Below, piece by piece: positions 5,019 through 64,000 of a stretch of 64,000 nt of DNA. Source of the stretch: Amphiura filiformis (lineage: Eukaryota > Echinodermata > Ophiuroidea > Amphilepidida > Amphiuridae); contig NC_092639.1 of assembly GCF_039555335.1 (NCBI RefSeq), positions 34,504,353 to 34,568,352 on the forward strand. The letters are read 5' to 3'. The notes below the pieces were generated by a model. That model was given only the letters and a program-made list of their open reading frames with translations. It had not been told where the DNA came from and made no database searches. Within the stretch, counting starts at the first letter, position 1. Each line of letters starts with the position of its first letter. The position numbers were made by a program, and so were the translations under genes.

Positions 5019-5306
5019 CTTTTTGGACTACAAAAGATCCTTCAGTCTAAGGGGCTATTCCCATCATTGCATTTATGTGTACCGGTACTATAGGGTGATT
5101 GGGATGCCCCCCAAAAAAAAACTGAAGTTTTAATATTACAGGACACATTTTCATTTTGTGTATTTTATTGCAAAAAACACAATTATATCACTTTTGAATG
5201 AATTAAGTTTAGAGGTTGCTACCCAGCTATTATTCTCCCCTATTTAAATCCATTGTATACAACTACAATGTGGTTTTGGTATCAATTTTTTGCTGCCATG
5301 AGCATG

Positions 5307-5405
5307 AAAGCCCTACCTGCTATAGCTGCCCTATAGACATTTGACCATTTCTGCATACTATATTGTACACAAATGACATCTGGCAGCTATAGCAGGTAGG
5401 GCTTT
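5307..5405. mobile_element. Short foldback element (about 100 bp)
   Basis: The arms AGCCCTACCTGCTATAGCTG and CAGCTATAGCAGGTAGGGCT are exact inverted copies around a short spacer. A related copy with the same layout lies at 50,257-50,391 (arms reading CAATAGCTGCC and GGCAGCTATTG), which shows a dispersed family rather than a local hairpin. Confidence 0.65.
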
Positions 5406-6499
5406 ATTGCACTATAAAACCCTTGGTATGTTGAAAAGGAATGTTGGCATTTTACATGCTTTCTTGATTTTTTTTACAAAGGTTAAAATACCCAAAGTCA
5501 AGACCTATTGTACATTTTGAAAATTATCAAAAGAGAAAATCTCTACAATAGTAGAAGCAACTCGGTTCATTAACGAAACTACTTTTTAACACCAAATCAC
5601 AACTGGCACCAACATAGCGGATTTAATAATAGTTGATTGCACACCCGGGAGCCACATCATAAATTTTTGATGGGTATATATATGTTCCCCTGAATTTTGA
5701 AGTTGTGGGTCTTTTGGAGCTGATGGCGTACTAGTAAAAGGGGGTCTTTTGGAGCTACGAACATATAAAAGGAGATCATTTGGAGCTTTGAACAGTCAAA
5801 AACAGTCAAAACAGGGGGCTTTCCAGGGGAGCATACCAGTATGGTCATTTGTTAAGTGCAACCCCCCCCCCGAGTTGCACAACTCATTTTGGGCTATATA
5901 AGTTACTATTTAAAAAACAACAAACTTGGATGAAAAAATTCAACAACCTGAAATAATTCATAAATAAAAGTCCAAGTAAAGTATTTTATAGACCACATAA
6001 TTAATTTTTTGGTTCTCATCCCCTCCAGTCTCAATTTCTGGGATTAGTGGGACTATTTTTATTAAAGATTTTTCATAACTTAAGGTTTATACTTTGGGTG
6101 ATTTAGAAAATATCTTTAAACACATTGATCATGCATGCCTAAATACAATTCTAAGACAAGAGTGGTAAATGCTGCAAAAGAGCTGCAAACTTAATACTTA
6201 TGTAATAATTTAATTTACCACCTTCATATCGTGTCAACCTTGAAACTCTGTCTTTGCATCAATTCAAAACAACTTTTTTAGACAAGCAAAGTGAATATCT
6301 ATCAGGGGAGTTAAAATCAATCAATTTTGTGCAAAATTGCTGCAGGCGCAAAAAGTGGAAATTTTCATAATTTGGGGGTTTTACTGGGGGAAACGGGGGG
6401 GGGGGGGGGGGTTTTTTTTTCTGGGCCTTTCCCCAACCACCTGGCACTGACACTTGTTCCATGGTGTGGTCCAAGCTGGTAGTTCAGTATGGGCGTTGA
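5406..6499. repeat. Dispersed repeat copy (about 5,968-6,296) in otherwise non-coding DNA
   Basis: The part from about 5,968 to 6,296 recurs in shortened form at 18,322-18,558, and its left portion (GTCCAAGTAAAGTATTTTAT) recurs at about 8,939-9,001. A pure G run near 6,398-6,410 precedes a T run. No gene seen. The repeat has no recognisable ends. Confidence 0.6.
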
Positions 6500-25969: not shown

Positions 25970-26662
25970 TTCAGCAAACACAAAAACGTTTTTAAAACGT
26001 TTTAAATAAGTTATATTTTGGGTTTTGGTTTAGGTAAAAACAATTTAATAACATTAAAATGTCGGGTTATATAAAGGTCATGAAATCGTTTTAAAACGCT
26101 TTGTATGAAAACACACTACAACAATATTTTTAAAATGTTTTCGAAAAGTCATTGTAAATTATTTTTGCAAACATTTTTGGCCAAATATTTTGTCAACACT
26201 TAAATAACATTATGTTAAAATATTTGCACCCAACAAACACAGAAATGTTCTTAAAATGTTTTTACAAAAACGTTTTAATAACATTTAAATGTCGGGTTAT
26301 ATAAAGGTCGTGAAAACATTTTAAAAACGTTATTGTAAATATTTTGGGCAAACATTTTTTGCAAAATATTTTTTCAACCCCAAAATAACATTCTGTTTAG
26401 AATGATTTGTACCAAGTTTTCAAAAATGTTTTTGGAATGTTATTAAAACGTTTTTATACCCTTTATATAACCCGCCATTTAAATGTTTTTTATCAAACAT
26501 TTGTTTTTGCTGTGCAGTACATTACCAACAAATGATATTTAATGTCATGAAAACGTTTTATACCATTAATGTACCCTTTATATAACCCGACATTTAAACG
26601 TTTTCTGACAGCCTTTTATAACCTTTTGCGAATTATATCGAAAACGTTTTGTGTTTGCTGGG
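25970..26662. mobile_element. 693-bp TA-flanked MITE in the array, copy A
   Basis: The ends TCAGCAAACACAAAAACGTT and AACGTTTTGTGTTTGCTGGG are inverted repeats, flanked by TA at 25,968-25,969 and 26,663-26,664. Removing the element and one TA restores a normal array unit (AATAACTACTTCATCAATAC). The interior is built of AACGTTTT/AAAACGTT words and repeated GGGTTATATAAAGGT motifs in both orientations, with no transposase. A sister copy lies at 37,511-38,199. Confidence 0.9.
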
Positions 26663-32901: not shown

Positions 32902-32974
32902 GCCTCGTTGGCGCAGTCGGCAGCGCGTCAGTCTCATAATCTGAAGGTCGTGAGTTCGAGCCTAACATGGGGCA
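32902..32974 (+). tRNA. tRNA-Met (CAT), elongator type, copy 1
   Basis: 73 nt folding as a standard cloverleaf: acceptor GCCTCGT with ATGGGGC and discriminator A, D-arm within GCGCAGTCGGCAGCGC, anticodon loop CTCATAA, T-arm GTGAG-TTCGAGC-CTAAC. It matches the conserved animal elongator tRNA-Met. The T stem has one mismatch (G opposite A) and the acceptor a G-T pair, so it may be weakened. No intron. TTTTTT follows within 8 nt as a Pol III terminator. Compared with the copy at 37,200 this one carries two substitutions. Confidence 0.88.
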
Positions 32975-32978
32975 CTGA

Positions 32979-34282: not shown

Positions 34283-36199
34283 ATTCATGTTCTTCATATT
34301 CATGGTTTATTAAAAGACACGGTAGCAGCTAAAAGCTGAATTGCTGTGAAATTTACAATCATTAAAAAACAACAAAAAGCATGACATAGATTTAAATATC
34401 AGAAAATATCACTTAGACGGGTACTACACCCCTCGATAAACCTGCGTCCACTCTCGCATCCCTCCCAAAAACCAACAACACAGTGGCAACAAGAGTCATG
34501 CACATCACAGGGGCAAGGAATCCAACCACCACACCGGAATCCCAGTGACCCAAGACAAGCGGTCCGTTATTCATGATAAGAAATAAGGTACCGATAGGAT
34601 GAACCCCGTTTCCCATCATATACACTGAACCGCCCGTCCCGAGCCACCGTAACCCCAGTGCAGCAATTGGACCCCCGCCCCAACAACATACACAACCCCC
34701 GCCACCAGTGTGCTACTACTTTCTGAGACAAATGCAAAAATAGTCACAAATCAACCACAGGGGTGCAGTACCCCCTTAAAGTACACAAAATAAACCAAGG
34801 GGCGAAACCTCATCCTGTAACCAGAACCCACAGAAAGAGAGGTCCGCAGCTAAAAGTGCGGTCAACTGGACCCGGGAAAATGGTGGAAAGGAGGTGGTTT
34901 CACCCCAAGGATAAACTTATTCAAATAGTAATGACCAATAAATATGATATTGCACGTGAAGAAATACATTATTCAAAATAAATAACAGTAAAAAGAAGGA
35001 GTCGTGTTGGGGCGAGTCATCATGATCCCAGAGGGGTGAGAGAGAAAGAGATGGAAAAAAGCACCAAACCCCTAATGAGGGCATGACCACTCGCTCCAAA
35101 GCAACTACACCAATAAAACATATCAAAGCATACAAGAAGATCAAAAGTTTAAATACTATTGCACGTATGGAATATATATAAAAGATGTAACACAGGCATT
35201 GTAAACAAAAGCGACACATGGTTAAATTGTTGAAATGCACATCAGGTATGAAAACATCACTATAAAAAAGGTTGGTACATATTGCAGTTAAGAGTTCAGC
35301 AGTCTGGTTAGGTAAGGTATTGCACTATCATAATATCGTTTGGTTTTCCAAGTTTGGGTTGTAAGTTTGTGAGCTCCACGCAAGTTTCTGCCATGGGCAG
35401 AACGCCTATCAGTAGGTAACCAGTCACGGAAGGTTGGGTCTTCAAGTAATTTTTGGCAAAGTCAAGACATATTTGATGCCTTCTTGTAGCCAACGAATCT
35501 AGGGAGCATACTTGGAGTGCATCATGATAAGATATGTATTGTTGACGCAACATGATTCTCAGTGCCCGCTTCTGGACTCTTTCTAAAGCAGCGGATTGAA
35601 CATTTGTGAGACTGCTATGCCACACAGGGACCGAGTACTCTAGCAGTGGTCTGATGAAGCCAACGTAAATGGTGATCAGATCTTGCAGGGGCAAGTTAAA
35701 CCGCTTAAGAGTAGTTAACATGAACAATCTACCTGCAGCACGTTTTATGACACTGTTGATATGAATGTCCCACTTTAAGTCACTGCTGATCTGAACACCC
35801 AATACCTTGACAACATCAACCTCTGCTAATTGCTGATTGCATAATAATAGCGGAGAAGGTGTGACTGGTGATTTAGAAAAACCAACCATCATCGACATGC
35901 ACTTGGTTGCATTGAGTGACATATTATTGCTCTCAGACCATTGGTCAAAGTTATTAAGATGCTCTTGGAGATGACTTCGCTGGTTCAGCCTACATTTCTC
36001 CACTAGTGTGATATCATCTACATATTTCAGTGCAGAAATTTGCTGAACATTGGAGATGGCAGCATCATTGTTTAACACTAAGAATGAACCTGGGCCAACC
36101 AAGGTACCTTGTGGAACACCCCCTTTCAGGGTTCTCCAACTAGAAGTGATAGACTGGTAACGCACACACTGAGACCTATTGCTAAGAAAATCGCACAAC
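34283..36199 (-). mobile_element. 5'-truncated non-LTR retrotransposon (CR1/L2/Jockey-like LINE)
   Basis: A 1.9-kb insertion, on the minus strand, between array units (ATACTTCAT on one side, CATCAATTCTAATTTC on the other; the uninterrupted sequence is seen at 26,970). It holds a reverse transcriptase C-terminal frame (35,308-36,198), then about 1 kb of 3' untranslated sequence ending with AATAAA and a short tandem repeat of ATGAATATGAAG. Short 3' repeats instead of poly-A are typical of CR1/L2-type LINEs. The 5' end is cut off inside the reverse transcriptase, as usual for target-primed insertion. The flanking duplication is at most 3 bp. Confidence 0.85.
35308..36198 (-). CDS. LINE reverse transcriptase, C-terminal half (truncated)
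   Basis: 296 codons open from the truncation point to a stop. The start CDFLSNRSQCVRYQ matches the FL-x-x-R-x-Q-x-V motif of LINE reverse transcriptases, GGVPQGTLVGP (residues about 26-36) is the conserved substrate-binding motif, and YVDD (59-62) carries the two catalytic aspartates. Next comes a long thumb/connection region with WDIHINSVIKRAAGRLFML, YSVPVWHSSL and LERVQKRALRIML, all typical of the CR1/Jockey group. The enzyme would reverse-transcribe its own RNA at a nicked target. The N-terminal palm motifs and endonuclease are missing because of 5' truncation, so it cannot act alone. The frame is uninterrupted over what remains, which suggests a fairly young insertion. Confidence 0.88.
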   Translation of the reverse strand: MCDFLSNRSQCVRYQSITSSWRTLKGGVPQGTLVGPGSFLVLNNDAAISNVQQISALKYVDDITLVEKCRLNQRSHLQEHLNNFDQWSESNNMSLNATKCMSMMVGFSKSPVTPSPLLLCNQQLAEVDVVKVLGVQISSDLKWDIHINSVIKRAAGRLFMLTTLKRFNLPLQDLITIYVGFIRPLLEYSVPVWHSSLTNVQSAALERVQKRALRIMLRQQYISYHDALQVCSLDSLATRRHQICLDFAKNYLKTQPSVTGYLLIGVLPMAETCVELTNLQPKLGKPNDIMIVQYLT

Positions 36200-36711
36200 C
36201 ATCAATTCTAATTTCAACAGTAGATAGTTACTTCATCAATACCAATATCAACAGTATATAGCTAGTTCCTCAATACCAATATCAGCAATAGATAGTTACT
36301 TCAACAATATCAATATCAGCTGTAGATAGCTACTTCATCATTACCAATATCAGCAGTATATATAGCTAACTTCACATATCAGCAGCAGATAGTTACTTCA
36401 TCAATACAAATATCAACAGTAGATAGCTAGTTAATCAATTCCAATATCAGCAGTAGCTAGTTACTTCATCAATACCAATATCAGCGGCAGATAACTTCTT
36501 CATCAATACCAATATAAGCAGTAGATAGCTACTTCATCCATACCAATATCAGCAGCAGATGGCTACTTCATCAATGCCAATATCAGCAGTAGATGGCTAC
36601 TTCATCAATACCAATATCAGCAGTACATAACTACTTCATCAATACCAATATAAGCAGTATATGGCTACTTCATCAATACCAATATCAGCAGCAGATACGT
36701 TGGACGAAGAA

Positions 36712-37199: not shown

Positions 37200-37272
37200 G
37201 CCTCGTTGGCGCAGTCGGCAGCGCGTCAGTCTCATAATCTGAAGGTCGTGAGTTCGAGCCTCACACGGGGCA
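37200..37272 (+). tRNA. tRNA-Met (CAT), elongator type, copy 2
   Basis: The best-preserved of the three copies: all stems pair (acceptor GCCTCGT/ACGGGGC with one T-G pair; T stem GTGAG/CTCAC), with anticodon CAT in CTCATAA. Upstream about 110 bp (from TTGTGGGACGCTTTATTCAC) and downstream about 150 bp are the same as around copy 1, so gene and flanks were duplicated together as part of a module of the 34-bp array. A TTTTTT terminator follows at 37,277. This copy is the most likely to be functional. Confidence 0.93.
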
Positions 37273-37510
37273 CTGAGTTTTTTCTTCCCTACGCGTCAGT
37301 AACTTTTTTAAAACTTTTTTTTCTATTCTAATCAGAAAACTTCAGAAATATAGTTTTTTTTTGCTCATAACTATGTCTTTTTTCTGTTTTCTCAATATCA
37401 AAAAATATCTACATTTATAAACAAAGCAATAGGTAGCTATTTTATCAATACCAATATCAGAAGTAGATATTTACTTCATTAAAACCAATATCAACACTGA
37501 GCAGTAGGTA

Positions 37511-39918: not shown

Positions 39919-39991
39919 GCCTCGTTGGCGCAGTCGGCAGCGCGTCAGTCTCATAATCTGAAGGTCGTGAGTTCGAGCATCACACGGGGCA
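39919..39991 (+). tRNA. tRNA-Met (CAT), elongator type, copy 3
   Basis: Same 73-nt gene as copies 1 and 2 except for one base in the T-arm (GAGCATCAC instead of GAGCCTCAC), which breaks the T-stem pair next to the loop and alters the last base of the internal B-box promoter. The 3' flank (GAGTTTTTTCTTCCCTACGC and about 120 bp beyond) matches the other copies, but the 5' flank does not: homology starts at ATGGGCCTCG, just before the gene. It is probably less active or a pseudogene. Confidence 0.85.
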
Positions 39992-41352
39992 CTGAGTTTT
40001 TTCTTCCCTACGCGTCAGTAACTTTTTTTTAAAACATTTTGTTTCTATTCTAATCAGAAAACTTCAGAATTTTTTTTTTGCTCATAACTATGTCTTTTTT
40101 TCTGTCTTCTCAGCAGTAGATAGCTACTTCATCAATACCAATATCAGCAGTAGATAGTTACTTCATCAATACCAATATCAGCAGTAGATAGCTACTTCAT
40201 CAATACTGATATCAGCAGTAGATAGTAACTTCATCAATATCAGCAGTAGATAGTTACTTCATCAATTCCAATATCAGCAGTAGATAGTTATTTCATCAAT
40301 ACCAATATCAGTAGTAGATAGTTACTTCATCAATACCAATATCAGCAGTAGATAGTTACTTCATTAATACCAATATCAGCAGTAGATAGTTACTTCATCA
40401 ATACCAATATCAGCAGTAGATAGTTACTTCATCAATACCAATATCAGCAGTAGATAGTTATTTCATCAATACCAATATCAGCAGTAGATAGTTACTTCAT
40501 CAATACCAATATCAGCAGTAGATAGTTATTTCATCAATACCAATATCAGCAGTAGATAGTTACTTCATCAATACCAATATCAGCAGTAGATAGCTACTTC
40601 ATCAATACCAATATCAGCAGTAGATAGTTACTTCATCAATACCAATATCAGCAGTAGATAGTTATTTCATCAATACCAATATCAGCAGTAGATAGTTACT
40701 TCATCAATACCAATATCAGCAGTAGATAGTTACTTCATCAATACCGTTATCAGCAGTAGATAGCTACTTCATCAACACTGATAGCAGCAGTAAAACCCCG
40801 ATGTCAGCAGCAGACGATCAATTAATCAACAGTTTATTAATCAACAGTAATCAGTAGATGGATACCACATCAACACTGATATCAGTAGTAAATAGCTACT
40901 TCATCAACACTGATATCAGTAGTAGATAGTCTTGTTAATTCATCAGCACTGATATCAGCAGTAGGTGGCCACCTTGTTAATACTGATATCAGCAGTAGAT
41001 ATCTACTTCATCAACACCGATATCAGCAGTAGACAGCTACTTCATCAACACTGATATCAACAGTAGATAGCTGCTTCACCAACACTGATATCAGCAGTAG
41101 ATGGCTATTTCATAAACACTAATATCAGCAGTAGGAGGCTACTTCATTAACACTGATATCAGCAGTAGATAGCTACTTTGCCAATACTGATATCAGAAGT
41201 AGATAGCTACTTCATCAACACTGATATCAGCAGTAGATAGCTACTTCATCAACACTGATGTCAGCAGTAGATAGTTACTTCATCAACACTGATAGCAGTA
41301 GTGGATGGCTACTTCATCAATACTGATATCAGCAATAGATAGCTATTTCATC

Positions 41353-45886: not shown

Positions 45887-46285
45887 ATGGTGGACAGTCG
45901 TGATAACATGGAAACCATGGACACATACCCAGTTTTAAGAGGTAAACCAGGAACTTTTGAGGAATCGATAGATTATTATGATGCGTCTGTCAACGTCATG
46001 AACGTCGACAATGAAGAGGAGGATGAGGATTTTGATCCGAGAGAGCGATCTTTCAACGTGTATGATTGTGGTACGTATTGAACTTGACGTGTCATTCTTT
46101 TGTATTCTCTAGGTCGGACATCCGGGCATGAACCGGCTGACAATAGCACTGGAGTGAAAACAACAATCGCATTCACTGAACTCTGGAGTGTATCACAAGC
46201 TATTTGTGCTATACCTGATCTCATGTACCAATACCTTGTGTATTGGTACATGATTCGGCGGGTATACTTCAGCAATAGCGAATAA
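45887..46285 (+). CDS. Candidate two-exon gene, unrecognised acidic protein (118 residues)
   Basis: ATG at 45,887 opens 61 codons plus one base to a donor GTACGT at 46,071. A pyrimidine-rich acceptor (TTTTGTATTCTCTAG) ends at 46,112, and exon 2 (46,113-46,285) continues in the same phase for 56 codons to TAA. Exon 1 is acidic, with NVDNEEEDEDFDPRE at about 44-57. Exon 2 has a hydrophobic aromatic stretch LMYQYLVYWYMIRR. The implied intron is only 42 bp, very short for a deuterostome, and a perfect 14-bp-arm hairpin (46,223-46,255) lies within exon 2. Exon 1 could instead splice to a more distant exon, since the phase 1 donor is also compatible with 49,612 or 60,602. No family recognised. Confidence 0.3.
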
Positions 46286-47090
46286 GTGGTCGTTTATTAC
46301 TCTTTTCAAAACGTCACATGTACACCAAATACAGCCCCCGAAATGGTCTACTTTTAGCGTGCCTTAACTCCGAAACAGTTTAGTCAAAGTTAAAAATGCG
46401 ATCCCAAACCCTTTACTTACCTTGGACGAATTTGCAGTATTTTCCGCTAGCTCCGTGTTGAAAAATGTCCGGTACTTGCCCGGTACAAACATAGAAATGG
46501 CCACATTTGCTTCAGTCCTGGTATGAATATTTCTTCCGTAATCCAATGTTCCAACGTGGGCATCACGGTGATAGTCTCCTACACAACCAGATTGTGTCGG
46601 CCTGACGCTCGTCGATCCTAAAAGTGAGGACAGCGTGAGCTCTTGCTCTGCGTAAAGTCTGTTCGACAAAGGCAATAAGGATGATTGACAGCGCCGTTCA
46701 TTGGGCGGAGCCATTATATTACGTCATGACAGCAGACAGGTTGCGCTGTTCTCTGACCTTGACTGTTCGTCACGTAGACATACCGTGACCTGGGTACACG
46801 TACAAAGCTGGGGGGGATGCGACTACGGCCGCCATTTTGACACGCGGTATCTACTCTTCAGAAAAATTACTTTTGGTGACGTTTTATATCAAACAATTTT
46901 CGATAACAGATTTCTACTAGGATTGCAATGTTTTATTAATGAAGGTGCATGTAGTTTTGAGGAATAACACGGGATGTTTCGAGTTTTATTTCAACTGGTG
47001 GTGTAGGAAGGTGTGTGAATTCGTGAATGAGGCCGTGGATTGAGGTTTCGTTGTTTCAACGATCCGATAGTAGGATACTGAAACGTGGCT
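46285..47090. repeat. Left arm of an inverted gene duplication
   Basis: Reverse complement, with moderate divergence, of 47,741-48,261 continued at 53,385-53,625. Shared stretches run from the inner TTTCAACGATCCGATAGTAG to the outer GGTGTACATGT. The arm includes the minus-strand coding exon 46,421-46,714 and its upstream region. Confidence 0.8.
46421..46714 (-). CDS. First coding exon of an unrecognised gene (98 codons)
   Basis: ATG at 46,714, read leftwards, opens 98 codons to a strong donor GTAAGTAAAG (46,411-46,420), phase 0. The peptide begins MAPPNERRCQSSLLPLSNRL and later has GDYHRDAHVGTLDYGRN and ISMFVPGKYRTFF. It is polar with no signal peptide or membrane segment. The same exon is partly preserved in the opposite arm at 48,129-48,257 and 53,389-53,479, including the donor site, which supports a real exon at the time of duplication. 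Upstream, TGACGTAA-like and GGGCGG words near the ATG are promoter-like. I find no following exon to the left before the satellite array, so the gene may be truncated. Function unknown. Confidence 0.45.
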
Positions 47091-47740
47091 AAAATGTCTA
47101 ATGACGCCATGTTTACATGAAAACATTAGCTGTTGCGAGGTCAGTGTCGTTGAATTAGTTACCTAAATTCCTTTCAGGATATTCTGATTTCACTTATTTA
47201 TGATGTGTACGAAAATTCACCATATAAACTCAAAAGTGTGAATGCAAGCTGTTATTGCTGACAATAGAAACATTGTTGCAAAGTCATTAAAAACAGGTAT
47301 GTATAACAGACGTACTTTGGCCGAAACGAGATACAGGCCAGTTAGGCAGTCTACTATTTGTGCCAGGTTCGACTCTAGACTATGCAAATGAAAATAATTT
47401 AAAAATGCGATGGATAAGTTGTTTTCACTCCAATGCATGAATGGATGTGACATGTGTGACGTGGCCCCGACCGAGCCGAGAGAATATAACAATTGAGTGT
47501 AACCATGAACGTAGGTATTTATAGTAGGAATTCCAATTGAATGAATGCAGCTTTCAACTAAATCCATCCGACCGTGATCGTATGGCATATTTCAAACTAC
47601 AAGGCGAACGCACGACCTTGGTTGTTGGATACTCGTACCAAGACCGCCTGAAACGATACCAGCGAATGAAGCGTTTCTAGATGATTTCAAGAACACCACC
47701 GCGACCGCGCATGCGTAAGACTAAGACCTTAGCCTACGTC
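47091..47740. other. Spacer of the inverted duplication
   Basis: No gene supported; a 123-codon minus frame lies here without motifs. Part of it (about 47,514-47,640) resembles the window's right end: GGAATTCCAATTGAATGAA is in the same orientation as 63,820, while the GCGAACGCACGACCTTGG part is inverted relative to 63,970-64,000. It is therefore a dispersed repeat. Confidence 0.5.
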
Positions 47741-48261
47741 TCGTATCCTACTATCGGATCGTTGAAATAAGAAAACCTCATCACGAATTCACTCACCTTC
47801 CTACACCACCAGTTGAAATAAAACTCAAACCTTCCCGTGTTATTCCTTAAAACAACATGTAACTTCATTAATAAAAAATTGAAATCCTAGTATGACCCGT
47901 TATCGAAAATTTTGTTTGATAAACATCAACAAAAGGTAAAATTCTCAGGAGCAGAATGCACATGGCAAATGGCGGCTCTAATGCTGGTTTCATACTTTCA
48001 TGTTGCTTGCCGCTGATCGGTATGAGCAGTGCAGCTAAACGGACATGAATAAGGCTTACGATTGGCTGATACGTCATCTCATAAAAAATTAGTCTCAGGT
48101 CAGACTGTATGTGGCTATCACGGGTTTGTTAGGATCGACGAGCGCTTGTTTAGACCCCCGGGGTCAGACCGACACAATCTGGTTGTGTAGTAGACTATCA
48201 TCGTGACGTCCACATTGGAACCCAGTTGAAACCATTGGAGTACGGAAGAAATGTTCATTAA
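47741..48261. repeat. Right arm of the inverted duplication, proximal part
   Basis: Matches the left arm in reverse from CCTACTATCGGATCGTTGAA outward. Homology breaks exactly at TTAA (48,258-48,261), where the 5.1-kb element is inserted, and resumes after TTAA at 53,385. Confidence 0.8.
48129..48257 (+). pseudogene. Duplicate exon fragment interrupted by the TTAA element (first part)
   Basis: Corresponds to the middle of the exon at 46,421-46,714 in reverse orientation (TTAGGATCGACGAGCG, GACCGACACAATCTGGTTGT, CATCGTGACGTCC). The rest of the exon is at 53,389-53,479, 5.1 kb away. Relative to the left copy it has a small insertion (about 48,146-48,161) and no homologous ATG. The interruption and indels mean this duplicate no longer encodes the protein. 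Confidence 0.6.
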
Positions 48262-48422
48262 GGGTATACGATGCACAGCGTAATGTTTCCCATTATTACG
48301 TCTAAATAATCGCCATGGTATTGACTAGAAAAATACGCTAGAGGGGTAGTAATTCGGCATAACTTCGCTAAGACTCGTGATGAATCAGAAGACCGAGCGG
48401 ACCGAACTTACTTGAACTCAAC

Positions 48423-49742
48423 ATGGCTGCGCCCAGTGTCTTCACACACGATAGTTGTTGTCAAAATCAATCGCATTATTTGCCTCGTTTACCGACGTTT
48501 TTGGACAAGTTTGCAATAGGTTTTCAATTCACCATATCAGAGAAGCAAATAATAAGATGGACTAAGGACAAATATTGCCACGGACATCGAATACAGTCAA
48601 TACACGGCGAAAACATGACGAGATTTGTTCCATTGACCAACACGTACTGCACTGCCAGTGTTTGTGTCTGTGTGTACAGCTATTGTTTGTGTACGTGTAC
48701 GAATCTGCAAGGTGGGTTTCTTTTTATATGAGGATTACATTTGTTTTGCAAACTAAAATGACACAACATTAGGGCTGCGCAATAATTATGAGCTTAGGCC
48801 TGTGGGAGGGGGATTTTAGTGAGTCGAAGAGGGATTTTGGCAAGCCGAGAAGGGGGGAGCAATTTTGGCTCACATTCATGGGATACCATGAATGTTTGCC
48901 AAAAATTGCTTGCCCCTCCCCCCTTTCTCGGCTTGTCAAAAATTACTTGCCCCCCTCTTGGCTCATTAAAATGTCTTTCCCCCAAAAAATAATACCCTCC
49001 CACATGCCTTGGGCCTTGGCTCATAATTATTGCACAGCCCTGGCTAATGTTGTGTCCTTTTAGTTTTTTGGGCTGAGAGGGGGTGCAATTTTTGGCGGGC
49101 CAAGTCCAAGAGGGAGGGGGCAAGCAATTTTTGACGGGCTGTTTGGAAATTTTATCCCCCTGGGGGCTCTTAATTATTGCACAGTCCTTAACCATGTGAA
49201 CTGGCATTATAGGATTCTAGGAAAACATGATTTCACTCCATCTGCAAACAATATACTTCTAAGATTTAATTTTAGGATAATTATACCCAGATAATTAAAT
49301 TGCCCGATCTGGAAGGCTTTCTCATTTCAAGATTTAACTAAAAAGTAAACAATAGCATGTCAAATTTATTCGTATTACATCAATTGTCTTTTGTATGCAC
49401 TCGGCCATTTTTCTTCTATTCCGCTACCAACTATCATGAGTACATAGGAATTTTAAATAAACCGTGGCCAGTGTGATTTTCAATTTAAAAAGCGAGTGCA
49501 TCCGAGTTAAAAGAATAAAACTAAAAGCATCACTGTCAGGTAAAAGGCGGTCCACAGTCCTGATAATTTGTAATTAATCATTGGCTATTTTTTTTCTAAT
49601 TCTAATTACAGATGCAGTAGAACAACTGAAGATAATGGCACAATTCTTGAAAGTAAAAAAAGATGATGGTTTGGAAGTGGACAGCTGGCATCTGTTATGT
49701 GTTGCATGTATTCAAAACTCTCCAAACATGCTGCCTAACTGA
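48423..49742 (+). CDS. Two-exon gene inside the TTAA element, unrecognised product (139 residues)
   Basis: Exon 1 (48,423-48,711) starts ATG in a good context (ACATGG), 96 codons plus one base, donor GTGGGT. Exon 2 (49,612-49,742) follows a pyrimidine tract and TTACAG, and continues in the matching phase (GAT codon across the junction) for 42 codons to TGA. The peptide starts MAAPSVFTHDSCCQNQSHYL, has a basic middle (QIIRWTKDKYCHGHR), a Cys/Val-rich low-complexity stretch (about 79-92) and a C-terminus containing EQLKIMAQFLKVKKDDGLEV. No membrane helix or known domain is visible. The start lies 160 bp inside the element's left end. The phase-consistent junction argues for a real gene; the TG-rich stretch before the donor is a caution. 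It could be an element gene or a captured host gene. Confidence 0.5.
48750..49067. mobile_element. Foldback element in the intron of the plus-strand gene
   Basis: The ends AACTAAAATGACACAACATT and GCGCAATAATTATGAGC are mirrored at the right by GCTCATAATTATTGCACAGC and AATGTTGTGTCCTTTTAGTT. Interior arms around CATTCATGGGATACCATGAATG are also inverted. A further partial arm ends at about 49,190 (CTTAATTATTGCACAGTCCT). Confidence 0.7.
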
Positions 49743-50256
49743 AAAAGTCAAGAATTTAATTTTTCGAAGAAAAATCTTACCTGGAGGTTGACTATTTTAT
49801 AAGAACTTAAATACTTGCATAGCGATTTTATGTGGTGCATACACTAACTACATGCATGATGCACTGGTAAATATTTGCTCTAATTATAAAAACAATAAGG
49901 CACTCAACAAGTGACACTCACAATGTGTGATGCCTACAACTGCAATGCAGAATTCCTTATAGACTGTATGTAGCTAGCATAGAATGATTGGAAATGTCCG
50001 ATGAGCAGGAACTTTTATTTGGTTAGCCTCAAGTTCAATAGTGACGTCTTTTCGTGGTTATGCCATACAAACCACCCTTGTATATACATGTGCGCTCTGT
50101 GCAATTAACTTAATGCTTGCAATTCAATACTCCACTGGCCCACCAAAATATACACCGATGTCACTACTGAACTTGAGGTAAACCAATGTATAGCCAAGGT
50201 TTCTGGAGGGGGGGTGATGGGTAAGGTGTACCTTCATTCCAATAATTAAAATTCAA
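49743..50256. other. 3' flank of the element's plus-strand gene, no further gene seen
   Basis: No canonical AATAAA close to the stop codon was noted. AT-rich, non-coding. Confidence 0.4.
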
Positions 50257-50391
50257 GGGGTTTCAGACCAGAAGGCCCCAATTGCAATAGCTGCCCTGTA
50301 GACATTATTTCTGCATTAAGTAGTGTACATATATCTCCAAAATATGACACCTGGCAGCTATTGCAGATAGGGCCTTCTGGTCCTAAACCCT
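50257..50391. mobile_element. Short foldback element, second copy of the 5,307 family
   Basis: The arms GGGTTTCAGACCAGAAGGCC and GGCCTTCTGGTCCTAAACCC enclose CAATAGCTGCCCTGTAGAC and CTGGCAGCTATTGCAG, the latter shared with 5,307-5,405. Confidence 0.65.
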
Positions 50392-51054
50392 TGTCTTGTA
50401 AATGCTTTATGCCTTTATTATTGGCAGACGACACTATTTCTCTCATGAAGATTAGCATTTTGGTTTTGGTGCCCCAGATTTTTGTCATTTTCAAGGCATT
50501 CTTCATCACCTTTTTGTCTTAGTGCCCTTAGTAGTCTTTTGGGAAGACTTGTGTGCAGGCTTCAAATTTCAGGATTTGTTTTTTTTGTGGGGGGCACATT
50601 TTCAAGCCTCCCTCCCAAAAACAAAATTGAAATTCAAGGCCTGCACACATTCCCACATTCCTTCCCAAAATACTAGTGACTGCCAATAGACAAAAAGAAA
50701 TGATCTTTATGTACTTATAAATAATTACTTAAGTTTTTACACCTATTTTTCTGATACATTTAAAAAGACAAGAGTTCATGAAATAAGCATGATGTAGTTT
50801 TGATCACTGTTTATTTTGAGATCTGTAAGAAAGTAAAAAATAAAAAAATAAAAAGCACAATTTGTTTAATGTTTTTTGTGTTTTGCATAAATAAGCAACC
50901 AAACCAAAATAGTTCAACAATGATGGGAATTTTTTACCAGCCTCCAGTGTGATGAAAGATATCCAGTATACTCTCTCAAAATTCCTCAACTTAAAAATCA
51001 ATCAATTGGATTAAAACATTTAAATGAAATTTGTGAATTCTAATCTATTAGAAA

Positions 51055-51200
51055 CATTCAATCTAATTCGATTTTTAATGTTAAAAAAATTGCTTGGATT
51101 GAAATCCAATTCGATTCAATTTAATTTGATTTTAATCCAAGGAGTTAAAAATCAATGTAAGCAATTTTTCATACCTTAAATTAAAATCGAATGAAATTGT
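51055..51200. repeat. AT-rich inverted repeat
   Basis: CTAATTCGATTTTTAATGTT, AAATTGCTTGGATTGAAATC and their inverses (GATTTTAATCC, AATGTAAGCAATTT, AACATT-like words, AAATCGAAT) form an imperfect palindrome. No known family. Confidence 0.45.
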
Positions 51201-51352
51201 ATTCTGTCTAAATTGAATATTTATAATAGATCTGAATAACATTTTACACATTCCATTACACCTAATTTATGAGTCACGACTTTCAATACTAGTATTGTTC
51301 TTCAATTAGCGACATTGAAGTGCGTTTCTGAACTCCGTCATCATTTCAGTCC

Positions 51353-52629
51353 TTATGTTGCATTTGTTTTGACTGCCTTTGCTGCAAAAAGTGACATGAA
51401 ATGGCTCACGAGGCATCCATCAATGATGACTACCAGTTGGTTGTTGCTTGTACAGTAGCTCTCATCTTTTAGCAGGCCTGAAAAAGAAAATATAAATTTA
51501 GACAATTTGTTAGGAAAGAGCTGGGACAGTGGTAAAAATAAAGTGTAAAAAAAAAGTGGTAAATAAAAATTTCAGACACCCCCTTTTTTGCATCAGCCCC
51601 CCCGTTACAAGTGTTTGTGAATGGTCCCTTAGCTGTTCCCTTGTTTACGAAAGTCTTGTTTCGCCACCGAGAATGTTACCCTGAACACCACCCCTGGTGC
51701 GGTCACTCACCAATTTAATTTATTTTTCATTTTCTCCCCGTCGGTGCCGTTCACAAACACTTGGTAACAGGGGACCTGATGCAATTTAATGGGAAAATAG
51801 GGCCCTTTCAGACCTAATATTATTTATTTTCAGAGCTCCGGTAACTAATGTTCTATGAGAAAAATTGAAAAATGAAGGTGATATTTTTGAAGTACCCCCC
51901 CTCCTTCAGAGGGGTAAAAAATTCAGCCCCCTTTTTGCATAGAATTAAATATAGTATTTTGTGAAAGAAAAAAAACCTTTAGGGGTATCATTTTCTCCGG
52001 GTGGTGTGGGACCCGCGGTAGGGGGTCATGAATACCTCTGGTGGGCAGCGTCAAATTTTTTTAAACCCCCTACCACTTTGAGCTACATTTTTATGACCCC
52101 CTGGCCCTCCTCCCTCCCATTTCAGGTCAAAACTCCCAACCTATTTTTATGGCGTAAACAAATTATACCCTTATTTTTGGTCTAAAATTCTATGCCCCCC
52201 CGCCCCCGTATATTCATACCCGGCACTTACCCCCCCCCCCAAAGAAAATGACAGCCCCCTTATAATATCATGGACAATTTCTACTGAAAATTCACCCCAA
52301 ATAAATAGTGGGAAAATTAATGTCTGCTATTTACAAAGAAATTACCCTTCACCATATATCCATCAGCATAAGCAATTAATATTTCACAGTGTTGTAAATA
52401 AGACATGTGGGCTAATTTCACAATTAGCGAAATTCACCATACCGGAAGCTCTGAAATGGTCCCAAAGTCGGTCGAGACATGGCCACTTTGCTGGATCGTG
52501 ACAAAAAGCTACCCTATAAACACAAAATTGTCCAGGACAGTAAAATTTTGTCCAGCCTCTCGGACCAACTGCATTGAAAGCTTCAGTTGTTCGTAATGAA
52601 GAAAAAACTTCAAGACAAATCACATTCAC
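51353..52629 (-). CDS. Spliced minus-strand gene inside the TTAA element, unrecognised product
   Basis: Upstream exon 52,443-52,629: acceptor ACTTAG before 52,629, 62 codons plus one base, donor GTATGG. Last exon 51,353-51,477: good pyrimidine tract and TTTTTCAG acceptor, continuing in phase (GGC across the junction) for 40 codons to TAA. The peptide contains FYCPGQFCVYRVAFCHDPAK, then WPCLDRLWDHFRASG, and ends with NNQLVVIIDGCLVSHFMSLF plus a short basic tail. The closely spaced Cys/His could bind metal, but I recognise no zinc-finger class. A 5' exon with donor GTAAGT at 52,810 is present, but its only ATG (52,835) reaches a stop after four codons and lies out of frame, so the initiator is unknown or the gene is decayed. 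It converges on the plus-strand gene of the element. Confidence 0.45.
51975..52265. repeat. G/C-rich dispersed repeat fragment in the minus gene's intron
   Basis: Opens with GGGGTATCATTTTCTCCGGG and closes with GAAAATGACAGCCCCCTTAT, an inverted pair. It resembles the G-rich fragment at 1,015-1,100. No gene. Confidence 0.5.
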
Positions 52630-52809
52630 CTAAGTTTGTAAGATATTCCCATTTTAAAATCGCATTTTCGTATCAAAATATTGCATACTGGGTCTCAAAA
52701 TCGCACTCCCTAATATCAGACAGTTTTCAATCTTTAAAAAATCAGGAAAAATCCATTTCTTGACCGTTTTTTACAGGGTTTGAAGCATTGAAAAGCTCAG
52801 TTTACTTAC

Positions 52810-52990
52810 CAGCGAGACGGCTACACGGAAACCATGTTGATTCACGCTATGCACTATGGGTAACCAATTTCCGAAAGTAGCCGATCACCGATTTATGAAT
52901 GAAATTGCAATGTTACTAACATTCGCGATGACGTCATTTCGTTACAAGTCACGAGCTACTCGCGCGCTGATTGGATGAATTCGCCGTCGT
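52810..52990 (-). promoter_or_regulatory. Likely promoter and non-coding first exon of the minus-strand element gene
   Basis: A perfect CRE palindrome TGACGTCA at 52,929-52,936 and a CCAAT box (ATTGG on plus at 52,970-52,974) sit just upstream, for the minus strand, of an exon-like stretch ending in a strong donor at 52,809. The layout is that of a housekeeping-type promoter near the element's right end. Transcription is inferred, not shown. Confidence 0.4.
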
Positions 52991-53027
52991 AGTAAATGAT
53001 TTTATATACGGAAACATTACGCTGTGC

Positions 53028-53374
53028 GATGTATTGTTGGTCGAAGCAGCAACAAAAAAATGTAGTTCACAGCATCTTGCGAATGGTAGTGAAAATTGCA
53101 TTGCTCAATTCATAGCGATCGTGTAGAAGAATTCAAATATCACAGATATACTTTTGTAGGTCCTGTGGTTCTTGAGTTGTTGTAAAGAGGGCTGAAACAA
53201 CAACACTTTTGTAAAACGTACATAACTCATTAACAACAATAAATTAAGCAAGTTTTCAAAGAATATGATTTGTAGAATGAACTTTTGCAAAACACCACAA
53301 GTGTTATTTTTCAATAACATATCGCTTTAGATTTAATGAAAATCAATTTTGTGGCTGCTTCGACCAACAATACC
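53028..53374. mobile_element. Nested foldback insertion in the right terminal repeat of the TTAA element
   Basis: The arms TATTGTTGGTCGAAGCAGC (53,032) and GCTGCTTCGACCAACAATA (53,354) are exact inverses, and they split the element's right inverted repeat into its outer 10 bp and inner 18 bp. The interior is AT-rich with no gene. Confidence 0.65.
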
Positions 53375-53384
53375 TCGTATACCC

Positions 53385-53625
53385 TTAACGGGACTGATGC
53401 AATGTGGCCATTTCTATGTTTGTACCGGGCAAGTACCAGGCATTCTTTGACACGGAGACTGCTACAAATTCGTCCAAAGGTAAGCAAAAGGTTGGCGATC
53501 GCATTTTTTTCAACTATGACTAAACTGTTTCAGAGTTGAGGTCCGCTAAAAGTAGACCATTTCGGGGGCTGTATTTAGTGTACATGTCGCATTTTGAACA
53601 ATGAGTGAAAACCGACTTTATTCCC
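53385..53625. repeat. Right arm of the inverted duplication, distal part
   Basis: Continues the homology of the right arm after the TTAA element: AATGTGGCCATTTCTATGTT, the exon end with donor GTAAGC, and GACCATTTCGGGGGCTGTAT. It fades near 53,625. Confidence 0.8.
53389..53479 (+). pseudogene. Duplicate exon fragment, part after the TTAA element
   Basis: Homologous to the end of the exon at 46,421-46,714, including the VPGKY-coding stretch (GTACCGGGCAAGTACC) and the donor (GTAAGC at 53,480). Compared with the left-arm copy it has lost about nine bases after GACACGGAG and carries other small indels; it no longer joins to its 5' half. Confidence 0.55.
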
Positions 53626-55870
53626 TGGTGGATTGTAGAGACGCTGTAGTAGACAGCCGTTCCCTGAGAATGGCTATATATACAAGTAGACATATAGAGT
53701 ACCGGTACTCTATAAGGCCAAAAAGACCAACCCTATTATTGGGCCCGACCCTACACTTTTTTTGTTGAAAAAAAAACCAAAAAAAAAAAAACCGATCGAC
53801 TAACCCCAAAACAAGCAAAACTTCAAAACTTTTTTTTATTTTCCGTCAAAAATATGACGATGTTCCTCTACATGTACATGGTCATGACCATGGCATGGTA
53901 TGCATATGTGACCCGTTCTGACAAAACCAGGAACAAGTCGCATTTTTGACATTTCATGATTTGAATAAAAATGTAAGCACAAAACAATAAGCTTCAAAAT
54001 GATACCAAAATTATATACATAGCATCAATATGGATGATTTTGTAAATGATACCTTTTTTTTTGCAAAATTGCCATTCCGAGTAATGTGCTAATTAGTTTC
54101 CTGCCTTACACAGGATTGAATAGGGATTATCATAGTTCAACTGACAATTATTAATTAAATAAAACCTCTTTTCGCCAGCCCATTCGGGGCTGGTACCTGT
54201 TTCAGGTTTGGGGTCAGTTTACTCAAGAGATTATATTTTAGTGGTATTGGAATGATTTTTTTTTTTACTTTTTGTGGATAAATTTTTTTAAAAATATTTT
54301 AATTCGATTTGTTAGGAAAAGTAAGTATGTTTTGCCGTTTCAACGAGCGAAAACGCAGTGAGTATTACCAAAGTTATGTTTGAACTAATTAATTATGACT
54401 TTAAAAGTTTAAAGGCCTAAATGTAACAATAATAGTTAATATATATAGCATCATATGGTCAGCAGAAGAAAATCTGACATCACCTATGATGTCATATCAG
54501 TGTCCTTGACCGGGGTCCTTACTCCTTGACCACTGAACAGCGTGATATCATGTTGATAACAGATCTATAGAATCAAAATCTTCATCATATCCTCGGATCA
54601 TATCACAGATTCTCAACAATCTGTGATCATATGGACCATATTGATATTGATATTGATGTGAAAGTAGTTATCTATCATATCCTGTGTCGTTTTATGGATA
54701 AAAATGACTCAAAATGTTATTGATGAAATGGTTGCTATCATAAACATCAGTTTTGTCTTTTCAACGGGAAAAATCCGATGCAAAATAAAGTTTTTAGGGC
54801 CTAGCTATAATATGGGCATAATTTATGCATATAGTATTGAACAATGTACCCCATTTGACATGCACTTATAGATAAATAAATTGTCTTACTTTATTAATTT
54901 AATAACTTCTTTATTATAAATAAAATGACACATAACTATTTGATTCATAAAATTACATTCAACAAAATGATTGAAGAGAAAACACACAAGGCACTAGGCA
55001 GACTGTTATAGAATGGAGTATGTAAGATGCCATGTCCATAGCTTCGCAGGGAGTTTCCGACTAGCAATCAACATGATCAGCACATTCAGAAAAACACAGT
55101 TTAAGAGTGAAGATTGTAGTGAGTAACCAGTCCTTTATAAATGTGCTGGCCACTATCTATTATAATATAGTAGGCTTAAACTATACATTGCGAATTAATT
55201 AAGTTATTTTAAAATAAAATGTACATGTAAGTTAACTCAAACCGGCAGTGTATATATCGAAAGCAGTGAAATCGGACATTCCTAAGCGAAGATATTGAGT
55301 TCGTAAGTTCTGGTATTACAAAATTGGAAATTGAGATATCGTGGGTAAAAAGCTGAAAAGACAAAAAAACCAACGACAACAACAACAACAACAACAACAA
55401 AACAAACAGACCAGAACAATTTGGAGTACATGTAATGAATTAAAAGAGTTGACATGAGATTAGGAATTAATGTTTTCTGCTGTTTCAGTGTGCATGTTCT
55501 CATCGTTGATGGTTTGGTGGACTGTCATGTAGATGTAAGCGTGATCCTAAAAATGCCTTTCACATTGACCAAAACTAATTACAAGACCTCTTCTACATTG
55601 AGGCTGGCTTTCCCTTTTAAAGGGAATTTTTATTAGTAAGTAATTTCAAGGATTTGAAAGTCCACTCAGTCCCAAGGTCAAATACCATGAAATTAAGAAT
55701 TCCAAAATTTGATTTTTGTTACGGGAATGTCATTTAATCTGTAAAGGCCTATACATGTAACTCAAAACTTGTCTGGCGACTTGTTCCGGGTTTTGTTGGA
55801 GCTGGTCACATAATATATTATATTAATATGCATGTTTTTCCTAGACTTATGCCTCCTTAACCCTAACCCA
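53626..55870. other. No gene seen
   Basis: AT-rich sequence. Noted: A runs at 53,770-53,790, a small hairpin ATCACAGATT/AATCTGTGAT at 54,605-54,630, and an AACAACAACAAC repeat at 55,375-55,398. Short open frames lack splice context. Confidence 0.5.
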
Positions 55871-55956
55871 ACTAGGTCTCACTAAAGCTCACTATTAAAA
55901 CCACTCTGGGTGCATGCATTCCACATGACTTGATGACGCAATCAGCCCAAGTCATA

Positions 55957-56135
55957 TATACCCAGGGAATCGTTGGCCGGGCCAACGTCACCTGTGTGGC
56001 TACATGCTGGGGATCTTCTGCATGGCATGCGAGGGGTCCCAGGCTCGAATCCCGGGGGTGCCAAGTGACTTTTCTCCTCATTGTCTCTCCTTTTTCGTTT
56101 CTTCTTTCCCTTCCGATAGCAAAAAAACCACGGGT
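55957..56135 (+). mobile_element. Possible tRNA-derived SINE
   Basis: GGCTCGAATCCCGGGGGTGCC (56,040-56,060) looks like a tRNA T-arm with a Pol III B box followed by an acceptor-like 3' end. Upstream GTGTGGCTACATGCTGG could be a degraded A box. The clover is not intact, so a SINE head is likelier than a gene. Inverted telomere-like words (TTAACCCTAACCC at 55,858 and GGGTAGGGTTAGGGTTAA at 56,131) bracket the region. Confidence 0.35.
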
Positions 56136-56529
56136 AGGGTTAGGGTTAAATAGAAGAGTGGACGTCATGATTAGACTGAATTCTTTGTTGTCTACCAACT
56201 GCGTATAAATATTGTGAGTTGCTTGAAAAGTCTAGCCACAAATTCGCTCACCGATAGCTTCACATTCGAGGCTAGAATGACTGCACATCTTCTGTGCATG
56301 AACAACAGGGTTTGAGAGATAAACAACCCAATCTCCTCCATTGATAATGTGTTTAATGAACTGTGCCTGAAACGGATTCCCCGCTAGCTCATCAATACTT
56401 CCCTTGTCTTATGCAAGTGTTCCGAAGATATCAAGACCAAAAAATATGCAAAACACATATTACATGTATGTCGAAAGTGTTTTGTACAAAGTGCAAAGTT
56501 CACTTCTTGAAATACCAGATGACTGGCCA

Positions 56530-57064
56530 GAGTATAGTCCCACCCGTTTTGGGTGAACATTTTTCAAAATTGGGGGTGGGACTATACTCGATTTCAAAAA
56601 AAAAAAAATTTATTTTATTTTTTTTTTAAAGATATTTTTTTTTTCGGCTTTAGAGTGTTCCAGGACCTAGACCTAAATGCTAGGATCATTCATGGTTGAC
56701 CTAAAAAAAAAAAAAAAAAAAAAATTTCAAGATATTTTGTATTTTTAATATGAAAATTGATAATTTGTATTCATGTCATAGTCTATTAATGATTTCAAAA
56801 TGCATTGAATTTGAATGCATTTTGAAATCATTAATAGAGTATGACATGAATACAAATTATCAATTTTCATATTAAAATACAAAATATCTTGAATTTTTTT
56901 TTTTTTTTAGGTCAACCATGAATGATATTTAGCATTTAGGTCTAGGTCCTGGGACACTCCAAAGCCGAAAAAATAAATAACTTAAAATATTTTTTTTTTT
57001 TTTCTAATTTCTGCAATTTTTCAAAATTGGGGGTGGGACTATACTCGAAGGTGGGACTATACTC
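56530..57064. mobile_element. 535-bp near-perfect foldback element
   Basis: The ends GAGTATAGTCCCACC and GGTGGGACTATACTC are inverted. Inside, about 190-bp arms mirror each other around 56,810 (for example ATGAAAATTGATAATTTGTA against TACAAATTATCAATTTTCAT). A 33-bp direct repeat containing AAAATTGGGGGTGGGACTAT lies on both sides of the palindrome (56,559-56,591 and 57,016-57,048). The palindrome would form a very stable hairpin. No coding capacity. Confidence 0.75.
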
Positions 57065-57080
57065 GCGTCAGTACGGTACT

Positions 57081-57191
57081 ATGGCGAGTTGTCAATGTTT
57101 ATCTCCTGAGCTGTTGGAGCATATTATTTTAAAATTACCCACAATGTACATTGATTCCGAGGTTGTGAAAGGGCTTATAGTGCAAAGTTAA
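57081..57191 (+). other. Short open frame with F-box-like start, doubtful
   Basis: ATG at 57,081 opens 36 codons (MASCQCLSPELLEHIILKLP at the start) to TAA. The LSPELLEHIILKLP pattern is reminiscent of the first helix of F-box domains, but the frame is short and there is no convincing donor. It may be chance, or upstream leader of the two-pore channel gene. Confidence 0.15.
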
Positions 57192-58270
57192 TGCTTCAAA
57201 TGTTATTCATGTGCAGTCAGAGTGAGTGGCCGTAGTCTACTGTAGTAGACCATTTAATTTATCATCCCTCTAATCCCTCTGAGCATGGAAACACCACTTA
57301 TCCTGTTCTGAATCTGATCCAACAGCTATAAATCTTCAACTGTACCCGAGAGAATCGCGCCACCCATGAAAAACACCAAGTAGTCACCAGGGGATGTGTT
57401 GTGTTTTTAAAATGCATGGAATGGTATGAATTGTTTATCAAAAAAGGAATGTATAGCAGTCTAGAGTGACCCTGGAATGTCACAAATTACTCATTCAGTT
57501 GTTTTCATTCATTTGGTCACGTGGATAAGCTTATTGCTTGATCATGTGGATAAGCTTATCAGGGTTAACATTTAGTGAGATATTTTCAAAAAGTTTTTAT
57601 TTTTGTGCTTTTACACCATACACTACAGTACACATTCAACTTCATGTGAATTGGAAAGAGACAGCTAAATAGTTACGAGCAGCCATAGGATTTATCTTAA
57701 GGAAACTGCAAATGCAGCAAACTGTTAAACTTGTCGAGTTATGAAAATCATGAAAATTAAGTACCACTTGATTATGTACTTTGTAAAATGAGTAATATAC
57801 AGCTGAAGCTACTTGGCATTTAATAAAAGGAACTGGAAATATTCTTGTCCCAGAATGAACTACATGTCCTTTGAAACTCTTGTACATCTTGGCTTGTACC
57901 ATATTGTGTAAGAGACTGGACAGACAGGAAGACCTACAATTCCCTGATATGACTGGCCAGGAAGATACAATGTATATGTGATCGACCAGTAGTACTGTCA
58001 CTGTGCAGTGTATGTACAATGTACATGTAGAGTGCATAGAAATGAACTTGTTGCAAGTGTAAACACATGGTAAACACTTATATTTTGATTTTGACTGTTG
58101 GATTTTGTTTATGTCAAATCTTTGTGGTGGATTAATGGATTTCCAGTGAATAGAAACTGAACTATTTCATGAATTCAAACTTCAATCAGTTTGAACTTTG
58201 TCTCAAGTGTCAACTGAATTTGAAAACTTTTGATAACTTGACATTATTATTGGCTGTTTTATAAGAGAAA

Positions 58271-63532
<5,262 letters not shown>

Positions 63533-64000
63533 GTAAGTAAGTTCATATTCGTTGATAACAGTATAATTCATTTTTGCAAACTTCTTAAGAATGAATTGAT
63601 GCAATTAGATAGAGGTGTATGTGTCACAAAAGCATTGACACTCACAAAATCCACCTTTCCCCTGTGCACGATTTAGCTAAAAGTCTTCCACAGAAGGAGT
63701 TACTGGGTAGCTTCCATTTGAAATACTCACGCCAGTTGTGGAAGATATATACAGGGGGAGTATTGATTTCAAAATAATTAACCCTAGCCAATTCCATTTG
63801 AAAAATTCCCTATAGTGGGAATTCCAATTGAATGAACACAGCTTTCAATAGCGTGACGATTTTTTTGTACATTGTGTGATGTACGCCAGCGTGTGCGACT
63901 GTGTGTGAGTTACGTGGAAATGAATCCAACCATGCCAACACACTCGTAATTGGTTAGCATTGTATCCAAGGTCGTACGTTCGCATTGTAGTTTGAAATGC
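63533..64000. other. TPCN2 intron 4 start with repeats
   Basis: Contains another CCATTTGAAAT-family inverted repeat (about 63,680-63,830) and, from about 63,815 to the edge, the dispersed repeat also found at 47,514-47,640 (partly inverted). No further exon within the window. Confidence 0.55.

Follow-up and report, generated by a model that had tools for sequence, protein, structure and literature searches.

A TTAA-flanked, probably non-autonomous Kolobok-type element in the first coding intron of the TPC2 locus of Amphiura filiformis or a close relative

The stretch of DNA analysed here (64 kb, hereafter the window) contains an open reading frame at about 62.1-62.3 kb that was similar to two-pore channel protein 2 (TPC2) in a PDB search (E 1.6e-14). 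Against a set of 5.8 billion proteins, a composite query carrying this frame as the positive control returned a single row from 535 candidates, namely the two-pore-channel-2-like protein from Amphiura filiformis, with an identity of 94% and E 9e-29. This protein was mapped back to the window by tblastn, and four pieces were placed collinearly, all on the plus strand:

45887..46069, plus strand: host gene TPC2, residues 1-61, 100% identity with the A. filiformis protein
60598..60729, plus strand: TPC2 residues 61-104 (following host exon), 98% to the A. filiformis protein
62064-62294, plus strand: TPC2 residues 95-169, 82%; overlaps the neighbouring pieces and probably extends past the exon edges
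63413-63544, plus strand: TPC2 residues 165-208, 93%

Three more tblastn rows (E 1.6-8.3), one of them within the element described below, were treated as noise. Because the TPC2 pieces map back in order on the plus strand, the window is taken as the TPC2 locus of A. filiformis or of a very close relative.

The ~26 kb located 5' of TPC2 (19151-44882) are dominated by a 34-bp tandem repeat with interruptions (consensus TCAACACTGATATCAGCAGTAGATAGCTACTTCA); multiples of this unit at 68 and 102 bp also occur. Between or within these satellite arrays are three tRNA-Met genes or tRNA-like copies, all on the plus strand (32902-32975, 37200-37273 and 39919-39992). A retroelement reverse-transcriptase fragment (35308-36201, minus strand; Pfam RVT_1, E 1.5e-10) also lies between satellite arrays.

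A 5123-bp element (48262-53384) occupies part of the 14.5-kb intron between TPC2 residues 1-61 and 61-104, which is the first coding intron. Its ends and foldbacks are as follows:

48258..48261: TTAA target-site copy, left (sequence and empty-site comparison)
53385..53388: TTAA target-site copy, right (sequence and empty-site comparison)
48262..48290, plus strand: left terminal inverted repeat, 29 bp, starting with 5'-GG (inverted-repeat comparison)
53375..53384, minus strand: outer 10 bp of the right terminal inverted repeat, identical to the left (inverted-repeat comparison)
53010..53028, minus strand: inner 19 bp of the right terminal inverted repeat, 18/19 matching (inverted-repeat comparison)
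53027..53377: nested foldback interrupting the right inverted repeat, 351 bp; arms of 31 nt, 94% complementary, with 289 nt between them
48750..49066: foldback within the proposed intron of gene 1 (foldback search)
50246..50401: foldback, with related sequence (70%) at window positions 5306-5414

The preliminary description of this DNA had reported a TTAA duplication and 28-bp inverted ends, one of them split by a foldback. Both observations were confirmed, the former by the two flanking copies together with an empty site, the latter by a match of 28/29 bases with the foldback 53027-53377 set aside; the called arms of this foldback overlap the right inverted repeat by a few bases. The left end of the element is GGGTATACGATGCACAGCGTAATGTTTCC, and the element has GGGTATACGATGCACAGCG ends. 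The outermost 10 bases inside each TTAA form a perfect inverted match, GGGTATACGA, and the termini, 5'-GG...CC-3', are of the 5'-RR..YY-3' type.

Six foldbacks make up 1327 of the 5123 bp (bounds from the foldback searches). No clean target duplication was found around the right-end foldback on inspection by eye. An Rfam search over the element at a relaxed threshold gave 11 matches, all under the family cut-offs: ten were to microRNA hairpin families and fell on three foldbacks, the best with E 1.7e-5 and 37.5 bits where the family cut-off is 130, and the remaining one was to an archaeal sRNA. The simplest reading is that the 5.1 kb arrived as a single unit; the foldbacks may have been added later.

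Among the 406 TTAA sites in the window, two pairs at a spacing of 300-8000 bp carry exact inverted ends of 10 bp, namely the element and 26285-26597. The same test on window shuffles gave a mean of 0.06 pairs, with at least one pair in 11/200. Besides the two ends, no further GGGTATACGA was found in the 64-kb window with one mismatch allowed. Long terminal direct repeats were absent, the first and last 1000 bp sharing same-strand matches of at most 20 bases. A stretch of 24 bases of the left end had no match among viral contigs, as expected for an animal element, and in a literature text search for the 10-base end the 12 papers listed, of 14 found, were unrelated by title. The second TTAA-flanked element, 26285-26597, is located in a satellite array and has 305 bp between its TTAAs and 19-bp exact inverted ends, ATGTCGGGTTATATAAAGG; it resembles a TTAA MITE with ends other than RR..YY.

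The flanks of the 5.1-kb element belong to an inverted duplication within the TPC2 intron, with arms of ~0.8 kb at 46289-47092 and 47729-53616 (element removed). The arms are identical at 664 of 797 aligned bases, in an alignment that extends somewhat past them. One arm provided the reference:

46289..47092, minus strand: inverted, diverged flank copy without the element, empty-site reference (alignment)

When fused over a single TTAA, the flanks align to the inverted copy at 46289-46723. The left arm has no insert and therefore represents the empty site. The earlier suggestion that excision restores an exon was upheld for the DNA, in that homology is regained, but not for coding. In the paralogue frame (MAPPNERR..., 119 codons open, antisense within the TPC2 intron), the target TTAA forms a stop (..GRNVH*RD*) and a second stop follows two codons later; the flank arms also differ by indels of 12, 9 and 1 nt. 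A Pfam search with the paralogue frame found no family at E<=1. The joined flank does not amount to a restored coding exon and provides no evidence for a broken host exon.

Two spliced genes with phase-consistent junctions had been proposed inside the element:

48423..48711, plus strand: gene 1 exon 1, from an ATG; no homologue detected, chance-level score
49612..49742, plus strand: gene 1 exon 2, junction 48711/49612
52443..52629, minus strand: gene 2 exon 1, open frame without ATG (frame listing)
51353..51477, minus strand: gene 2 exon 2, junction 52443/51477

Both frames begin near the element ends and read inward. Across 48711/49612, gene 1 has an ATG-to-stop frame of 139 codons with GT..AG splice sites. 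Across 52443/51477, also a GT..AG junction, one frame of gene 2 is open for 103 codons with no in-frame ATG before the junction; of its other two frames, one has no upstream ATG and the other has an ATG and stops a few codons past the junction.

The models were scored by open length plus splice-site strength of the best two-exon model, using approximate splice weights, and compared with 200 shuffles that kept dinucleotides within 500-bp blocks. Gene 1 scored 29.2, where the shuffles averaged 26.6, and 34/200 shuffles reached this value with an ATG required (55/200 under the ATG-optional rule). Gene 2 scored 29.2 against a shuffle mean of 29.3, a value reached in 98/200 shuffles with the ATG optional. 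Three of six control stretches of the window reached the score of gene 1 with an ATG required, and one of these, 58513-63635, contains TPC2 exons. With thresholds placed at the observed values, shuffles matched gene 1 in 0/300 cases and gene 2 in 1/300; among seven other window stretches, none matched gene 1 and one (53390-58512) matched gene 2. The strong statistical support suggested by 0/300 and 1/300 was rejected because these thresholds had been chosen after the fact, and it is superseded by the threshold-free score.

At relaxed thresholds, the element contains 10 spliced ATG models, compared with shuffle averages of 2.3 and 2.7 and with 0 to 11 in window stretches. Models with a long first exon number 6, where the shuffles average 0.35 and 0.45 and window stretches hold 0 to 8. 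The best ATG model of the element is 49840-48797 on the minus strand, scoring 32.5 (shuffle 95th percentile 31.5, maximum 33.8), and the best ATG-free model is 51563-52498 on the plus strand, scoring 38.6 (95th percentile 33.8, maximum 39.2). One of these top-scoring models crosses the foldback 48797-49072, the other C-rich sequence near 52.1-52.5 kb, and neither is gene 1 or gene 2; the frames holding their long exons matched no Pfam family at E<=0.01. The excess concerns open frames of the element at large and gives genes 1 and 2 no special standing. Of the earlier proposal, the junctions do keep frames open; the scores are at chance and the frame of gene 2 lacks an ATG ahead of its junction. 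Genes 1 and 2 are not distinguishable from chance open frames, or are at most unrecognisable exon remnants of a full-length parent element.

The profile searches that the preliminary description had foreseen for both products returned nothing convincing from Pfam, PDB or the protein set: there was no Pfam match at E<0.1, no PDB match at E<1, and no relative in the 5.8-billion-protein set at E<=0.01, a wider length range included. PUB_1 for gene 2 (Pfam, E 0.2) and beta-2-microglobulin for gene 1 (E 1) were discarded as weak. The protein set is not blind to the organism, because it contains A. filiformis TPC2, a single protein being no proof of the whole proteome. None of the three resources yielded a host parent protein for either model.

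As the preliminary description had noted, a transposase is not visible: none was recognised at Pfam E<=0.01 among 79 stop-to-stop frames, each at least 36 aa long and sharing 60 or more bases with the element. The best sub-threshold rows from these frames fell in three families (E 0.016, 0.017 and 0.04), which may be expected from 79 queries. The DDD/E transposase with a C/DxxH motif of autonomous Kolobok members was likewise not recognised in the 79 frames, searched with general Pfam without a known Kolobok-specific profile. No KolX/P2X7-like protein was matched in the Pfam and PDB searches, which used no KolX sequence as query.

PMC9587614 describes Kolobok transposons as duplicating TTAA and ending in 5'-RR..YY-3', a feature in which they differ from piggyBac. 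The element has both the TTAA duplication and 5'-RR / YY-3' termini. Of the two families named beforehand as candidates, Kolobok fits by target site and GG...CC ends, while piggyBac, which shares the TTAA duplication, is contradicted by the terminal bases (PMC9587614); no transposase was recognised in the element, and a piggyBac-type origin is improbable. Among Kolobok elements, Xenopus T2-MITEs and XKol elements are reported to have a TTAA target and AGG or AG ends (PMC6004289). Non-autonomous Kolobok elements such as T2-MITEs resemble the present element in the TTAA target, terminal inverted repeats, RR ends and lack of a transposase. They differ in that T2-MITEs are short MITEs with AGGRR ends, whereas the element is 5.1 kb long, has GGGTATACGA ends and is a candidate Kolobok by its ends and target. 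KolobokP, reported from three echinoderm classes (sea stars, urchins and sea cucumbers; PMC9587614) and characterised by terminal direct repeats as long as about 450 or 660 bp, shares the TTAA duplication and presumably the Kolobok lineage; it was excluded because the element has no long terminal direct repeats.

The insertion itself is genuine and that of an ordinary TTAA-targeting DNA transposon. In our best explanation, with a probability of about 0.8, the element is a non-autonomous cut-and-paste DNA transposon of Kolobok type. The sequence shows that it entered the first coding intron of TPC2 at a TTAA, that this TTAA was duplicated, and that the element is bounded by inverted repeats with 5'-GG at their start. 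A Kolobok transposase encoded elsewhere in the genome would have recognised these ends and moved the element in trans. The foldback that splits the right terminal repeat probably hinders further movement, and mobility may have been lost. The interior appears non-coding, with several smaller foldbacks. Counting against this explanation are the single copy of the ends in the window, with no autonomous partner found there, and the spliced open frames, which are somewhat richer in the element than in its own shuffles.

That same richness in relaxed spliced models would suit descent by internal deletion from an autonomous Kolobok, with the frames of genes 1 and 2 left over as exon remnants of its transposase and accessory protein. 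This is a special case of the best explanation rather than an exclusive alternative. Both frames begin near the ends and run inward, and several Kolobok lineages encode varied second proteins, such as the KolX (P2X7 ballast-like) protein of the Kol0 lineage, related to the P2X7 tail (PMC9587614). Against it, Pfam, PDB and the protein set gave no convincing match and nothing resembling KolX/P2X7, in queries that included no known Kolobok-specific profile; we regard such a descent as possible but rather doubtful. We consider it very improbable that a Kolobok-type element of brittle stars carries gene 1 as a genuine small spliced gene, encoding an orphan accessory protein or comprising a first exon acquired from the host and driven by the element's own promoter.

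The preliminary description had offered two interpretations of its own. One was the capture of host exons and promoters by a non-autonomous element. In the form of Pack-TIRs, with first exons of host genes taken up, this process is known in animals, mainly from hAT and TcMariner (PMC8277862). Like an animal Pack-TIR, the element has TIR ends around non-transposase sequence, and gene 1 offers both a start codon and GT..AG splice sites. A Pack-TIR carries a captured host gene, whereas no parent gene was identified here among the proteins searched, even though the set contains A. filiformis TPC2, and the gene-model scores are at chance. Non-autonomy is the most likely state of the element, in which no transposase was recognised; capture is unsupported and very unlikely. 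The other was an undescribed type of transposon carrying small spliced genes, here two convergent ones. The frames and GT..AG junctions exist and relaxed spliced models are commoner than in shuffles, but shuffles reach both scores, the gene 2 frame has no ATG ahead of its junction, and one copy is seen in the 64-kb window; we consider this type extremely improbable and its proposal unsupported.

In keeping with the best explanation, repeats of A. filiformis, DNA transposons for the most part, are reported to have been active in a burst 10-15 million years ago (PMC11310086); in a word search, the term 'Kolobok' was absent from the main text of that genome paper. The locus would deserve more weight only if other copies keep the gene 1 frame intact. 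As it stands, one well-delimited TTAA element, with its empty site in the same window, is added to the DNA-transposon load of A. filiformis.
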